The notes below the pieces were generated by a model, which was not told the origin of the DNA, ran no database searches, and worked only from the letters and a program-made list of their open reading frames with translations. Positions 48,961-61,852 of a DNA stretch of 64,000 nucleotides are shown here, in pieces; position 1 is the stretch's first letter; each line of letters begins with the position of its first letter. This stretch comes from Hyaloraphidium curvatum. Taxonomy: Eukaryota; Monoblepharomycota; Hyaloraphidiomycetes; Hyaloraphidiales; Hyaloraphidiaceae. The stretch covers positions 620,001 through 684,000 of the forward strand of contig JAIVFI010000022.1 in assembly GCA_025558095.1 (NCBI GenBank). The letters are read 5' to 3'. The position numbers and the translations under genes are program-made.

Positions 48961-51326
48961 ATGGCGGCGTGGGAGGCGGCGCTCTCAGGGGAGGACGGCG
49001 AGGACGGCTACGACTGGCAGGCGCTGGTCGTGCGTGCGGTGGCGGGGCACGGGGCGGCGGCGGTGGCGGCGGCGTTGGCGGCGCCGGCCGACGGGACGCC
49101 CTCGGCGCGGGCGGGCTCCGATGGCCCGGGCGGGGGCTCCGATGGCCTCGGCGGCGGTCTCAGCGGGGACGGCGTGCGGTGGGCGCTGTCGCCGCTGGCG
49201 CTGGAGCGGGCGGCCCTGTCGCAGAAGGAGGGCGGCGACGCCGACGACGACGGCTCGGAGACCTCGGCCGGCGACCTGGCGACCGGCGGATCCGAGGCGA
49301 ACCTGACGCTGGTCTCGGCACACTCGGGCCACTCGGCGCACTCGGGCGACTCGGCGCACTCGGCGCCGCCCGCCCCCGGCTACGGCAGGCGGCCGACCCC
49401 GCACGCCCTGCACGCCGCCACGGCCCTCCCGAACATCAAGGGCGGCTCGGACTCGCTGCTCGAGTTCCTGGTCAGGAGCTCGTCGGGCGTGCCCCCTGCC
49501 GCCCGGGCGGCCGCCGCCCACCTCGCCCTGCAGACCGCCGTGCGCCGCTCCCGCCCCCTCGAACCGCGCAGCCTGATCCCCCCGCCGGACCTGGGCCCCG
49601 GCGCGCCCCCCATCTCCGAGCTGCTGGACATGGCCGTCGAGGCGCAGTGGGCCCTCGCCCACCCCGTCTACCCGATCCTGCACCGCCCCTCGTTCGAGCG
49701 CGCCATGCGCGGGCTGCCCTCGTGCTACCCGCGCCGCCCGCTCGCCCTCCTGTACGCCGTCGCGGCCATCGGCGCCCGCGGGCTGCCGGTCCCGGAGCCG
49801 CAGCGCAACATCTTTGCCCGGTGGTGCTGCGACCGCGCCCGCGAGACGCTGCTGGACCGCGACCCCGGGGACCTGGAGGCCGCGCAGGCGCTGCTGGGCC
49901 TGGCCAACGTGCTCATCGTCGCCGGCGTGCCGCAGCGGCTGTACCCGCTGATCGTGCGGCTGGTGCGGTCCAGCGAGCACCTGGCGAGGACGGTGGAGCC
50001 CGGGTTCCCGTCGACGCCGGACGCGTGGATCAGGAGGGAGCTCGTCCTCCGCCTGCGCATCTTCGTCTCGTGCGTCGACCTCGCCGTCGCCAAGCACTCG
50101 GGGCGCCCGGTGATGGGCTCGTACTTCCACCAGCACGCGTGGCCCGCGCCGGCGTCGGAGCACTTTTTCGACGACCCGGACACCGAAGGGGCGCACGCGC
50201 TGCTTTCCGAGCTCGTGGCAAAGCGGGGCGAGCCCACGGTGCAGTTTGGACGCAGGGGGTGGGCGGCGGCCTCGGCGGCCGTGCGCGCGCTGGCCGGCTC
50301 CCCGTTTGGCGGCGGCGCCTCGGTCCTGTGCCTGATGCACCTGGCCAACTACGTCCGCTTCCTGCACATCTCCGCCTCCCCCCCTCCCCCTCCCCCTCCC
50401 GGTGGCCCCCCTCCCGCCGGCCCACCTCCCCCGGGCGCACCCCCCGCCCGTCCCGACCCCGCGAAAGCCCGCAACCTCGCCGCCTTCGTCTCCACCCTCT
50501 CCGACCTCGTCCTCACCTCGCTGCCACCCGACATCGGCGGCCCCCTCTCCCGCGGCGACGCCGCGCCGCTCTTCTCCCTCGGCGCCCGCTACTTCCCGCA
50601 CCCCGCGCACCCCTTCACCGCAGCGCAGTCCCTGCTGTTCGCCGAGGCCCACGCGGCCGAGGGCTTCATGCACGCGGGGTTCCCGTCGTCGGCGCTGGCG
50701 CGCTGCGGCCGCATCGCCGGGATCCTCTCGGCGTGCCTCTCCCGCGACCCCGAGATGCGCTGGGCGCACCACGTCGTCCTGCCGCCGCTGTACACCGTGG
50801 GGAGGATCACCCTGGGCGCGCTGGCGGGAATGCGCACGAGCCCGGCGTTCGAGGGGGACAGGGAGCGCGGGGAGAGGGAAGGGCGGATCGCGGAGGCGGA
50901 GGGGTGGGTGAGGCTCGTCGGGGTGTGCCTGGGAAGGATGGGGAGGATATACGGGCTGCTGCGTGGGTTCTCCCGCCTGCTTCCACGCGGGTGGCGCACT
51001 GACCTGCAGGGTTCCCAGCGAGGAAGCTCGCGCAGCTGTTTGCAAAGGACATGCGCGACGCCGGCGTGCAGCCCGACCCGCAACCTGCCGCACGCCACGC
51101 GGCGACGGAGGACGACGGCGAGACGGTGGAGATACCGGACGAACCCGAGCACGCCGAGGAGGACAGGGGCGAGGCGAAGTTCTTCATGGACGTGGCGCTG
51201 TCCTCGGCCGGCGGCGCGCTGCCGGGGTTGCGGAGGACCGGGACGGGGTCGGATGTGGGGAGCGTGGGGTCGGATGCGGTCGGTGGGGATGGGAGGGAGG
51301 GGAGGAGGGCGAGGGGGAGGGGGTGA
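48961..51326 (+). CDS. Fungal transcription-factor-domain protein (no zinc cluster), member 1
   Basis: Two exons (48961-50962, 51010-51326) give 772 residues, exactly in frame. The central region is the fungal-specific transcription factor (MHR) domain. HPVYPILHRPSFERAM is its usual entry motif, followed by RPLALLYAVAAIGARG, RWCCDRARETLL, VANVLIVAGVPQRLYPL-like helices, and ELVLRLRIFVSCVDLAVAKHSGRP. No Zn2Cys6 cluster is present anywhere, although this domain is nearly always paired with one. The N-terminus is acidic and Gly/Ala-rich with a HSGHSAHSGDSAHSA repeat. A proline-only stretch interrupts the domain near 50380-50460. Paralogue at 58171-60173, with the intron at the same place. May regulate via a partner protein (inference). 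Confidence 0.85.
49318..49366. repeat. Short tandem repeat coding HS(G/A)
   Basis: Units near CACTCGGGC(G/C)ACTCGG repeat within the N-terminal part of the transcription-factor-domain gene, giving alternating His-Ser-Gly and His-Ser-Ala. Confidence 0.7.
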
Positions 51327-51496
51327 GGTTGCGGGCGGAGCGGGAGGCGCCGGGAAGGCCGTGGACCTATGTCTGGACAAAGGAATTGAGGCGCCTTCCC
51401 AAATCGAGATTATGCATCCCTCGTGATACAATGCGGATCGACGTGCGAATTAAATACGGGGACGCGCTGCAACTCGGGCGTCCGACCAACCCGTGT

Positions 51497-57576: not shown

Positions 57577-58170
57577 TCCGGGACCTCCGCGGTGCGCGCC
57601 CGGCTCGGGGCGAGCAACCTGGACCGCGGGTTTTGCGGGTCGTCGTTCTTGTGCGACGGATGCGGGCTGCCCGGCGGACCGAAACACCAGGGGTGTCTTT
57701 CACGACAGCTCAATCCGGTCGACCCAAAGGGAATCGCCAGATCCGATTATGATTTATGCTGAAAAGCAGCGGATGCACTGGGAGGCTTTCACGGGGTTTC
57801 CCGCCCCGGATGCCCTGCGTCCACGTCCACCTTTCGGGCAACACTTGGAAGGCATCTCGCCGGGCACCCATCCAGATCCCGCGCCATCACTGCAGCTCTG
57901 ACCACTCCGGTCTCGTAGTCGCGAACCTTGCCACTCGGGTGGTTCCGGCGGCGGCCCCGCGTTTGCCGCCCGGCCGCAACCGGCCACGGTGAATCGGACC
58001 CTTCGACGGCAGAAAACGGCCGTCCACAGGAGGGCCGCGCCCGGCCGAATCCCACCCGCCGGCGATGTTGCGAAGGCCTTGAATCTCCCGACCGTTTCCC
58101 GCCCCCCGCTGGGTGCGCGAGGGCGACGCTGGGTCGGTGCGGCTCCGTGCGGCGCAACCCCCCGCGGGCG
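57577..58170. other. Divergent intergenic region
   Basis: About 590 bases between the disordered-protein gene and the second transcription-factor-domain gene, probably with both promoters. No recognisable element. Confidence 0.45.
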
Positions 58171-60173
58171 ATGGGCGAGCGGACGGCGCCGTCGGGCGAC
58201 GATGACCGATTGCTGATCGCCCTCGCCGCGGGGCTGCGGGTTTCGGCCGACGCTGCGGACGCCGGGAGGGGCGGGGCACGCAGCGGGGGAGGCGCCTCGG
58301 ACGGAGGCAGCGACGCCGCGTGGTCGGATGCCCCGCCAGACGGCGATGGAGAGCCGGAAGCGCAGCTGGCCAAACGGCCGCCACACCCGCGGCCAACGAG
58401 CCTGCTGGACTCGGGCTGGAGCGGGTATTCGGCCTCCCTCCCCCCGGAGGCGGCCGCCCCTGCCTCGGACCCCTGGCGGGCGGCCTTTGGCGCGGGAGGC
58501 GGGCTGCCGAGGCCGATGCGGACGTTTCCAGCCCCATCGCCGGCCGCAGACGTCGCCCCGCTCAGCGCACCGGCTCCCCCCTCCGAGCTGCTCTTCCCGG
58601 CCATCGCCCGCTTCTTCGAGGTGTTCCACCCGCTGTTCCCCGTGGTGCACAAAGCCACCTTCGAGGCCTCGCTCGCCGGGCAGCCCTCACCGGTGTACGC
58701 CGGCACCCGCCCGCTGGCCCTGGCCTACGCCGCCGCGGCAGTCGGGGCGTTCCACCTCCCCGCCGAGCCCGAGCAGGCGCGGGTGCGGTTCGCCAGGCTG
58801 TGCTGCGACCGCGCGCGGGACCTGCTCCTCGCCGGCCGCGCGTCGCCCGTCGAGGAGGCCTTCGCGCTGGCCCTCATTCTGAACGTGATGCTGGTCGCGG
58901 GCGTCCCGGGGAGGATGGCCCACCCCTTGCAGAGGTGCGGCCGGCTGGCGGAGGCGCTCTACCTCTCCCTCCCCGAGGAACCCCCCTCCACCCCCGACGA
59001 GTGGGTGTACAGGGAGCAGGTCCTCCGCCTCCGGATATTCTACTGCGCCTTCGACCTCGGCGCAGCCTTCAACGCCGGCCGTCCGGCGCTGTCGAGCTAC
59101 TTCCACCCGCACCGCAGCCCGCTCCCGTGCGGAGAGGCCTTCTTCGACCACCCCTTCCCCGGCGCCGCGTTCGACGCCCTCACCTCCTGGAGGGAGTCCG
59201 AAGGAGGCGAGCCGTGCGTGCGGTACCCGGCCAAGGACTGGCGTGAGATCTCGGGCACCTTCTCCCACCTCTCCTCCCTCTCGGCCTCGCCCTCGGGCAG
59301 CGTGCTCTGCGCCCTCATGCTCTCCAACTACGTCCGCCACCTCCGCATGGCCCTCGGCCGCTCCGACGCCTCCTCCCCGCTGAACGACCGCCGCACCGCC
59401 GCCGGCGGGCTGGTAGGCGCATGCGACGCCGCGCTCCGCGCGCTCCCCCCGGATCTCGGCACCGCCCTGTCGCAGGGCGACCCCGCACCCCTCCTCCGCT
59501 CCCGGGGCTTCGCCGACCCCGCGCATGCCTACTCGCTCCTGCACTCGCACCTCTTCTCCGAGGTCCACGTGGCCGACCGCCTCCACGCCGCCGGCTTCCG
59601 CGCCTCCTGCGCCGCGCGGCACCTCCGCCTCGCGCGGTGCCTCGAACAGCTGCTGCGCGCGGATCCGCCGGGGGACAGGTGCCACCACGTGCTGATGGCC
59701 CCCGCGTACGTCGCGGGGAGGTACCTGCTCGCGGATCTGGTCGGGGAGGAGCCGCGCGGGCCGGACGAGGGGGGCGAGGGGCGGGAGAGGAGGAGGAGGG
59801 AGCTGGGGAGGGGGGTGCGGGCCGTGGGGAGGTTCTTGGAGAGGCTGGGGAGGGTGTACGGGCTCCAGCGTGGGTTTTCGTCGTGCGGCGGGGGTTCCGT
59901 ATTGTTCTGACCCCGGGTGACGTTGCAGCGCGCAAGGTGGCGAGGGCGTTCGCCGGGGACGTCGCGGCCGCGGGTTTCGGGCCCGGCGGTCCCGCGCCGC
60001 TGCCCGAGGACTCGAGCGACCTGCAGGAGGACGACGGGGGGTTCGTGCCCGGGCCGCCCGAGGGCGGGGAGGAGGCGAGGTTCTTTGGGGACGTGCTGCT
60101 TTCGGGCAAGGTGAGGTGGGAGTCGTTTGCGGCGGGCAAGGGCGGACCGGGGTCTCCGGGGAGCCTGGGTTAG
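58171..60173 (+). CDS. Fungal transcription-factor-domain protein (no zinc cluster), member 2
   Basis: Two exons (58171-59869, 59929-60173) give 647 residues, exactly in frame. Start MGERTAPSGDDDRLLI. The MHR-type domain is clear: ARFFEVFHPLFPVVHKATFE, RPLALAYAAAAVGAFHLP, RLCCDRARDLLLAG, NVMLVAGVPGRM, EQVLRLRIFYCAFDLGAAF and SGSVLCALMLSNYVRHLRMA. It aligns end to end with the protein at 48961-51326, including the last-exon words ARFFGDVLLS against AKFFMDVALS and the intron after YGL-Q/R. Like its paralogue it lacks Zn2Cys6 and any other DNA-binding motif I can see. The pair lies 7 kb apart on the same strand. Confidence 0.86.
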
Positions 60174-60476: not shown

Positions 60477-61852
60477 ATGACCGCCCGAATACCGGCCTCC
60501 CGGCGCCGCCGGGTCATCTCCCTCTTGTACTTGTGCCTGCTGCTCGTTCTCGGGCTGGGGGCGGGGGGGGCGGCGGCAGGGTCCCCCCGACCCCGCCGGC
60601 TCCCCGCCGACAACACCGCGCCGGTGGCCCCTCCCCTGCCCCGCCAGGCCGGCAACGACAGCGCCCCCGCCTGCCTCGTCGACGCCGTCGCCCTCTCCGT
60701 CGCTGGCTTTTCCTTCGCCGCCCGCACCGCCACCGCCGAGCTCCGCGTCCTCGCCGTGTGCTCGTCGCAGATGGGCGTGACCGACGTGCTCCGCCTCGTG
60801 GGCCCGCAGGGCGACGGCAGCGTGCAGGTCTCGGCCCAGGGCGGCGCGCCGTTGCCCGCCGAGGCGCAGGCGCAGCTGCCGGGGATGGTGTGGATGGCCG
60901 CGGCGCAGTACCGCGCCGACGTGCGGGCGCGGTTCGAGCTAAAGTACTACCCGTTCGATCGGATAAGGGTGCCGGTGGCGCTCGAGGCGACCAAGCCGTG
61001 GGGGGACATGGAGGTGCGGTTCGGGCTGCTGGACGCCAACCCCGGGTCGAGGATCGGCAACGGGTTCTTCACGGACGAGGCGCTGATGCTCCAGGGCCTT
61101 CCCATCGTGGTGGCGGGGAACTTTGGCTACGTTCCGGACTCGTTCGGCGCCCAGGCGCCCGAGTTTGCGCGGTTCACGTTCGAGTACGAGTTCCGGAGGG
61201 ACGACGTGACGACGTTCGTGCAGGTCATGCTGGCGAGCTACCTGGCCTTCATGCTCAGCGTGTCGTCGCTGGCGCTGCCGGTGGAGGAGCACTTTGACTC
61301 GCGGATGGGGATCCTGGGCGCAAGGTGGGCCGCGGCAGCGCCGGGACGCTTCGGCGAAACTCACGCCTCCACAGCATCTTCGTCGTCGTCCTCACCATGT
61401 CGGCCCTCTCGACCTTCCTCGGCTACCCCGCCACCATGACCCTGGGGGACTACATAACCCTCTCGACGCTCTTCCTCATCGGCCTCATCTTTGTCGAGAG
61501 CATCTGCGAAAAGTGGCTCGTGCTGCACCGCCGGGCCAAGGAGGACGACGCCGAGGCGCTCCACAGGGCTTTCGGCAACGGCGCCGAGGACGTGGACGGT
61601 GCTGACAAGGCCGCGGCCGAGGGCACCAACGGCGCCCTGCGTCACCGCGGCCCGCGTGCGCCCGCGGGTGCAGGGGTCGAGATGCCCGTGGTCGACGCGC
61701 CCCCGCGCCGCTCGGTGTTCTGCTTCGGCGCGTGCCCGCGGCCCAAGGGGGCCGAGTGGATGTCGCTGTGGACCGCGGTGACAGTGAGCATTGCGTACGT
61801 CGGGATCAACGTCGGGCTGCTCGTCGGGTACAGGGCGCCGCCGGGGGGCTGA
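60477..61852 (+). CDS. Pentameric ligand-gated ion channel, Cys-less type
   Basis: Two exons (60477-61324, 61375-61852) give 441 residues, exactly in frame. A signal peptide (VISLLYLCLLLVLGLGAGG) is followed by a beta-rich extracellular domain. It contains the family hallmark YYPFDRIRVPVALE at about 157-170. There is no cysteine before YPFD or after it, so the disulfide of animal Cys-loop receptors is absent, as in bacterial GLIC/ELIC-like channels. Four membrane helices follow: M1 ~246-268 (FVQVMLASYLAFMLSV), M2 ~277-299 (SRMGILGA, then SIFVVVLTMSALST), M3 ~304-328, a ~85-residue cytosolic loop with a CFGACPRP patch, and M4 ~413-435. The single intron falls inside M2. The ligand is unknown. 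Such channels are rarely reported in fungi. Confidence 0.88.

Follow-up and report, generated by a model that had tools for sequence, protein, structure and literature searches.

The gene at positions 60477-61852 of the window, i.e. the whole 64,000-nucleotide stretch of Hyaloraphidium curvatum DNA analysed here, encodes, in our reading, a divergent channel subunit that belongs to the superfamily of pentameric ligand-gated ion channels (pLGICs; Pro-loop receptors), and a bacterium was most likely the source of its lineage. We put the probability of this reading at about 0.8. The host belongs to the Monoblepharomycota (NCBI taxonomy) and is described, in a part of PMC8371127, as an atypical non-flagellated fungus that was once classed as a colourless green alga.

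Gene structure and landmarks

Removal of a single 50-nt intron from positions 60477-61852 leaves an in-frame coding sequence for a protein of 441 amino acids. The features, all on the + strand, are as follows.

57928-59910 (+): upstream neighbour, an ORF for a fungal-type transcription factor (PF04082; E 1.4e-5, 24.7 bits, cut-off 23) on the same strand as the channel gene
60477-61852 (+): whole gene, with ATG at 60477 and the stop codon ending at 61852; the splice of 60477-61324 to 61375-61852 is uninterrupted
60477-61324 (+): exon 1, residues 1-283, from the signal peptide through the extracellular domain and M1 into the first turns of M2
60477-60578 (+): predicted signal peptide, about residues 1-34, with an Arg-rich start followed by a hydropathy peak (13-31)
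60579-61196 (+): extracellular domain (ECD), about residues 35-240; aligned by hhalign to bacterial short-ECD pLGICs (profile columns 71-338)
60672-60674 (+): Cys66, invariant in the three intact family members; Cys in 3 of 11 bacterial rows
60759-60761 (+): Cys95, invariant in the three intact family members; Cys in 0 of 11 bacterial rows
60948-60959 (+): YPFD, the beta6-beta7 Pro-loop motif, residues 158-161
61197-61199 (+): Arg241, the pre-M1 arginine, invariant in 14/14 and 11/11 rows of two alignments
61206-61274 (+): M1, about residues 244-266
61305-61423 (+): M2, about residues 277-299, interrupted by the intron
61325-61374 (+): intron of 50 nt, GT-AG, within M2, splitting the codon AG|C of Ser283
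61375-61852 (+): exon 2 (remaining M2, M3, long M3-M4 loop, M4 and stop)
61439-61516 (+): M3, about residues 305-330; Asp308 in 14/14 rows
61517-61759 (+): long M3-M4 loop, predicted cytoplasmic, about residues 331-411
61760-61828 (+): M4, about residues 412-434

Besides the peak of the signal peptide, which was called from hydropathy only and not by a dedicated signal-peptide program, hydropathy peaks are located at residues 244-268 (M1), 273-297 (M2), 305-333 (M3), and 416-434 (M4), and a weaker one at 63-81 lies in the extracellular part. The in-frame spliced coding sequence and the hydropathy profile bear out the coordinates, the signal peptide, the YPFD motif, and the four membrane helices that the original prediction had assigned to this gene. 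GC3 is 0.93 over both exons, and the overall GC content of the 300-base flanks is 0.65 upstream and 0.71 downstream. The sole protein that a set of 5.8 billion proteins returned for the contig, P0001 (320 aa; window positions 60477-61439), reads through the intron, ends in an unrelated C-terminal sequence, and has lost most of M2, M3, and M4. AlphaFold2 prediction of exon 1 gave pLDDT values of 41 for the sequence alone and 50 with an alignment of 10 pLGICs, a low confidence that yielded no usable model.

Paralogs of the gene are found on three other contigs of the genome, C3 (34% identity), C23 (three blocks; 36% overall), and C11 (a partial copy), and the family has three intact members: the window gene itself (contig C22), C3, and C23. 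The splice is supported by homology, since codon and phase (GA|S) of the intron recur in C23, whereas the intronless C3 paralog encodes the joined sequence continuously, with the frame running on. The intron predicted inside M2 thus has support from two paralogs, and, being common to C22 and C23, it is older than their duplication. The C11 copy (L029, minus strand, reverse-complement about 1721-2556) carries a deletion that runs from the Pro-loop to M2, and its two parts are in different frames; this copy is probably decayed.

According to a part of the 2016 superfamily survey (PMC4795631), pLGICs are marked by [F/Y]PxD at the beta6-beta7 loop, in which the Pro is absolutely conserved, and the Pro-loop Asp and the pre-M1 Arg form a coupling salt bridge. 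The frequencies given there are 79% for Arg/Lys at M2 0', 88% for the M2-M3 Pro, 77% for Pro at M1 14', and 71% for the ECD-core Trp on beta9 (otherwise Phe or Tyr), and at 9' the usual Leu has Phe as an alternative (13%). The landmarks present in the window protein are Y158, P159, D161, R241, R276, F285, and D308. Pro159 and Asp161 are invariant in 14 rows (3 fungal and 11 bacterial) and in all 11 rows of another alignment; Arg276, at M2 0', is conserved in 14/14 rows and Phe285, at 9', in 13/14 (prime numbers by alignment). All three intact copies share the Tyr-Pro-x-Asp of the Pro-loop, the pre-M1 Arg, Arg 0', Phe 9', a Pro after M2, and the Asp starting M3. The residues just before M2 are Asp/Glu-Ser/Ala-Arg in the family, and 6 of the 11 bacterial rows also have an acid at the first of these positions.

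Among the seven most conserved pLGIC positions tabulated in that survey, the ECD-core Trp was not found: no Trp lines up with that of the bacteria, and the region is shortened in the fungal family. The Pro at M1 14' is replaced by Ala253 in the window protein (C3 and C23 have Pro here, and the 11 bacterial rows Gly or Ser), and the M2-M3 Pro (P301, in all three copies) is displaced to two residues later than the bacterial Pro. The loop-A WxPD motif, which is present in the class I pLGIC genes of the fungus (see below), is not identifiable in the window family and therefore gives no pointer to a ligand. The cysteines of the window protein are at residues 20, 66, 95, 327, 399, and 403, and the two that flank the Pro-loop in the animal Cys-loop subtype are missing. 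The description of the channel as Cys-less consequently holds for the Cys-loop but not for the whole protein; judging from their conservation, Cys66 and Cys95 may form a disulfide.

Homology to pLGICs

Single-sequence searches miss the superfamily. The window protein showed no pLGIC match in Pfam even at E 1, and its search against the PDB gave two ribosomal-protein matches at E 1 and no pLGIC. Neur_chan_LBD and Neur_chan_memb of Pfam matched none of the three family members at E 10, and the NCBIfam LIC model reached one of the three (E 0.012). The original prediction had proposed a search with these two Pfam models and had named the lack of a match as a reason to give it up; formally, the lack of a match is what was found for the window protein. 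A Pfam match is, however, a criterion of detection by one library, and the profile evidence described below outweighs its absence. As to other families, DUF4436 was rejected as the true family, with no Pfam match, and DUF6594 (E 0.0045) and MscS_TM (E 0.024) were under the curated cut-offs and covered the membrane part only.

The three intact copies (C22, C3, and C23) were combined into a profile, named A1, which was compared with pLGIC alignments using hhalign. The comparison with seven channels of the same genome gave a probability of 42 and E 2.7e-4 in the right register, and that with 12 more diverse pLGICs gave a probability of 91 and E 1e-6, collinear from before the Pro-loop to M3. The score of the latter, 58.9, was reached by none of 240 shuffles (120 by column and 120 within 15-column blocks; best 30.6), and the reversed alignment scored 16.9. 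A search of 177,635 PDB sequences with A1 found four matches up to E 10, and the best three were pLGIC chains: two of GABA-A delta (E 0.0042 and 0.0055) and a GABA-A chimera (E 0.26), followed by an unrelated designed protein (E 0.83). In two of the alignments with pLGIC chains, the register was kept over the Pro-loop and M1. In addition, HMMs built from 4 animal/other rows and from 6 ELIC-like rows both placed the window protein first, each with E 3e-6 and 21.1 bits. The pLGIC identity is thus borne out by profile methods with shuffle controls: the protein combines YPFD, R241 before M1, R276 at 0', and F285 at 9' with homology at the profile level.

The protein might nevertheless not be a channel but a membrane protein with the pLGIC fold that has lost gating or pentamer formation. 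The unaligned ECD-core Trp, the absence of the M1 Pro from the window copy, and the deleted C11 paralog, which shows that the family tolerates decay, are in line with such a loss. We consider it unlikely, since all three intact copies retain the coupling residues (the Pro and Asp of the Pro-loop and the pre-M1 Arg) along with the M2 residues at 0' and 9'.

Bacterial relatives

Eighty loci were found with a four-row pLGIC alignment, 25 of which were used. Eight of the 11 bacterial short-ECD proteins that grouped with the window family in the first tree (see below) were aligned to give A6. A1 matched A6 with a probability of 98 and E 3e-14 over 249 columns, and the score of 107.3 was reached by none of 150 block shuffles (best 29.6). 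The scores of A1 to the different groups were 97.6 for eight rows of the short-ECD clade, 62.3 for six ELIC-like bacterial rows, 56.6 for four animal or unnamed/EukProt rows, 50.7 for four myxobacterial/Pelagibacter rows, 35.7 for three other bacterial rows, and 35.2 for eight class I rows, two environmental relatives included. An HMM built from A6 only and run against 473 targets ranked C23 (E 1e-18), the window protein (E 4e-11, 37.4 bits), and C3 (E 1e-9) at the top, and ranks 4 and 5 were unspliced pieces of the window gene. In contrast, the class I HMM found nothing significant in the window family (0.15 for an unspliced piece of the window gene and 0.26 for C23). A6 itself matched a GLIC-GlyR chimera (E 2.7e-18) and ELIC and GLIC (about 2e-15) in the PDB. 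All eight of its members match PF02931 at E 1 or better (best 5.4e-9), and all eight match NCBIfam LIC and LGIC_1 (TIGR00860/NF033918) under the curated cut-offs of those models.

Whole-genome searches with A1 detected 8 of 9 clade genomes at E 1 (one of them at 0.64) and 7 of 9 at 1e-3, and none of four genomes carrying other pLGICs. At E 1e-6, A1 matched 3 of 385 genomes of the class to which G007 belongs and 5 of 294 of G008's phylum, the centre genome being counted each time; going by record names, the short-ECD clade is sparse yet spread across several bacterial phyla. Short exact patterns of the family gave 11 stretches in bacterial genome contigs and 61 in viral contigs, none of which was confirmed, whereas profile searches of chosen bacterial genomes succeeded. 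In a set of 5.8 billion proteins, both the single protein and A1 returned only the window's own protein, with 7,993 candidates scored each time. By eye, the flanking ORFs of 11 bacterial loci contain no shared partner gene. In G007, an Azospirillaceae metagenome genome, two short-ECD pLGIC genes are adjacent (L121, contig C88).

The fungal family and the bacterial short-ECD pLGICs share the collinear domain order, the lack of an identifiable loop-A motif, the Pro-loop, the pre-M1 Arg, Arg 0', Phe 9' (13/14 rows), the Asp at the M3 start, and a Tyr in M4 (13/14 rows). The fungal family differs in having Cys66/Cys95 and introns, in an M2-M3 Pro preceded by two additional residues, and in lacking an aligned ECD Trp. 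Its M3-M4 segment comprises some 80 residues or more and is much shorter in the bacterial sequences that were inspected for it. GLIC, the proton-gated channel of Gloeobacter, has the superfamily landmarks and likewise an acidic -2' and a small -1' residue before M2, but it was reached via the bacterial clade and not by a direct A1 match. The GABA-A chains of the animal Cys-loop receptors are the best direct PDB profile matches, from the Pro-loop through M1; unlike these GABA-A/glycine receptors, the window family has no Cys-loop disulfide and no identifiable loop-A motif.

Ordinary pLGICs of the same fungus

Elsewhere, the genome contains about ten ordinary pLGIC genes (L030, L031, L032, L033, L034, and L035 on contigs C6, C1, C37, C39, and C4), several of which form tandem or opposed pairs, so the window gene does not stand alone as a fungal pLGIC. 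Nine of them have LBD matches over the curated cut-off, down to E 7e-24, and the C4 gene is the tenth, recognized via its membrane domain; several are already auto-annotated as pLGICs by NCBI. The best matches of a class I protein are glycine and GABA-A receptor chains, and that of the C4 protein is GLIC. The class I and C4 proteins (P0002-P0007 and P0011) resemble the window family in being, by eye, without Cys-loop cysteines, but class I differs from it in the full-length LBD with WxD and WxPD motifs, the strong Pfam matches, and a separate place in the tree. P0008, P0009, and P0010 share about 55% identity with one of the fungus's class I pLGICs, and the tree places P0008 and P0009 within class I, pointing to unsampled relatives that carry channels of this type.

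Origin of the family

In the first tree (LG+G4; 41 of 44 rows), the window family grouped with 11 bacterial short-ECD proteins with a support of 100/99. The second tree, calculated with a mixture model, contained 39 of 52 rows, without fragments, near-copies, and some long bacterial rows. A 100/99 branch set the window family and 17 short-ECD bacterial rows (L047, L049, L053, L054, L060, L063, L065, L071, L080, L098, L106, L121, L129, L130, L132, L134, and L135) apart from the class I, C4, animal, unnamed/EukProt, and other bacterial rows. AU tests rejected a clade that unites the window family with the fungus's class I (p 1.5e-4) and likewise one that unites all rows assumed to be eukaryotic (p 2.7e-4); these clades were named after the first tree had been seen, and the eukaryotic set includes P0008, P0009, and P0016, whose organism was assumed. 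The stem of the window family has a length of 2.15, its position beside versus among the bacterial rows has a support of 71/5, and long-branch effects on the placement are possible. Because of this support and the long stem, no donor can be named, and the direction of transfer is what we infer.

The original prediction had offered two origins, a bacterial acquisition or a retained ancestral channel, and had called for a phylogeny. The grouping with the bacterial clade and the AU tests favour the former, and the best reading of the sequences appears to be an old bacterial acquisition that was later duplicated and to which introns, a conserved pair of cysteines, and the long loop between M3 and M4 were added. 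If the channel had instead been retained, the short-ECD lineage would have been present in early eukaryotes or opisthokonts and lost nearly everywhere, with no transfer into fungi. The split is not datable from the present sample, and the age of the M2 intron, which predates the duplication of C22 and C23, would suit such retention. However, no eukaryotic relative was found in the 5.8-billion set, which has some EukProt entries and was searched with limited sensitivity, and the bacterial lineage is present in several phyla, making retention improbable.

It is quite unlikely that the family branched off from the eukaryotic-type pLGICs of the fungus itself (class I on C6, C1, C37, and C39, or C4), evolved fast, and was drawn to the bacteria by long-branch attraction. 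Such genes do exist in the same genome, the family stem is very long, and the first profile comparison with the seven own-genome channels already gave a low E value. Against this, the profile score is far lower to class I than to the bacterial short clade with 8 rows each, the bacterial HMM finds the family significantly and the class I HMM does not, and the first AU test rejects the required clade; the profile comparisons are, moreover, independent of the tree.

Fungal_trans has 74 matches on 33 of the 55 contigs of the genome, two of its transcription-factor ORFs are in the window (48961-51426 and 57928-59910), and the EF-1alpha of the genome carries an insert, which we take to be typical of animals and fungi. 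Together with the paralog-supported intron, these findings support the fungal host and the true splicing that had been claimed. A contaminating bacterial or other eukaryotic scaffold, which the bacterial relatives of the family might suggest, has a negligible chance in view of the spliced gene, the 706-kb contig, the two Fungal_trans ORFs, and the Fungal_trans matches on the paralog contigs C3, C23, and C11 (that of C3 under the family cut-off).

Implications

The part of the 2016 survey cited above reports pLGICs as absent from fungi (PMC4795631), and a literature search, which most subscription journals lay outside, found no paper on fungal or Hyaloraphidium pLGICs. The absence, which the original prediction had repeated as a general description, is contradicted twice in this genome, by the ordinary members and by a divergent family invisible to standard domain searches. 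Absence claims based on domain searches may also be unsafe in other lineages. As a eukaryotic representative of a bacterial pLGIC clade, the window family would allow one to test which features a bacterial channel gains once a eukaryote has captured it, and the window gene, to which the original prediction had given a tentative sensory role, is a candidate for chemical sensing in a neuron-less fungus. Tentatively, and at somewhat less than even odds, this flagellum-less aquatic fungus may have assembled its receptor-channel repertoire from independent sources, namely eukaryotic-type pLGICs that expanded to about ten genes and a second lineage captured from bacteria, which would have gained a long M3-M4 loop similar to the one in animal receptors and would act as a cation channel in environmental or cell-cell signalling.

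Proposed mechanism and history

The signal peptide would direct the beta-sandwich domain to the cell exterior or to a vacuole, and five subunits would surround a pore lined by M2. A small molecule, an ion, or a pH change could shift the extracellular domain, and the contact of Asp161 in the Pro-loop with Arg241 would pass the change to M1/M2, opening a gate near Phe 9'. The resulting ion flow may change the membrane potential or calcium. Cations are a better guess than anions for the permeating ions, because the residue at -2' is acidic, as in GLIC (Glu-Ala-Asn), which is cation-selective.

The lineage would have come from a bacterium with a short-ECD pLGIC and would have been duplicated in the fungus, leaving the intact C22, C3, and C23 and the deleted C11; introns, Cys66/Cys95, and the long M3-M4 loop would be gains made there. 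In the C23 paralog (L028, minus strand, reverse-complement 1964-2022), one intron, 59 nt long, is itself one of the units of a tandem duplication (59 nt) in the coding sequence, in which a 68-nt stretch is at least 85% alike. From this arrangement, this intron looks as if it was born by tandem duplication around CAG|GTGC.
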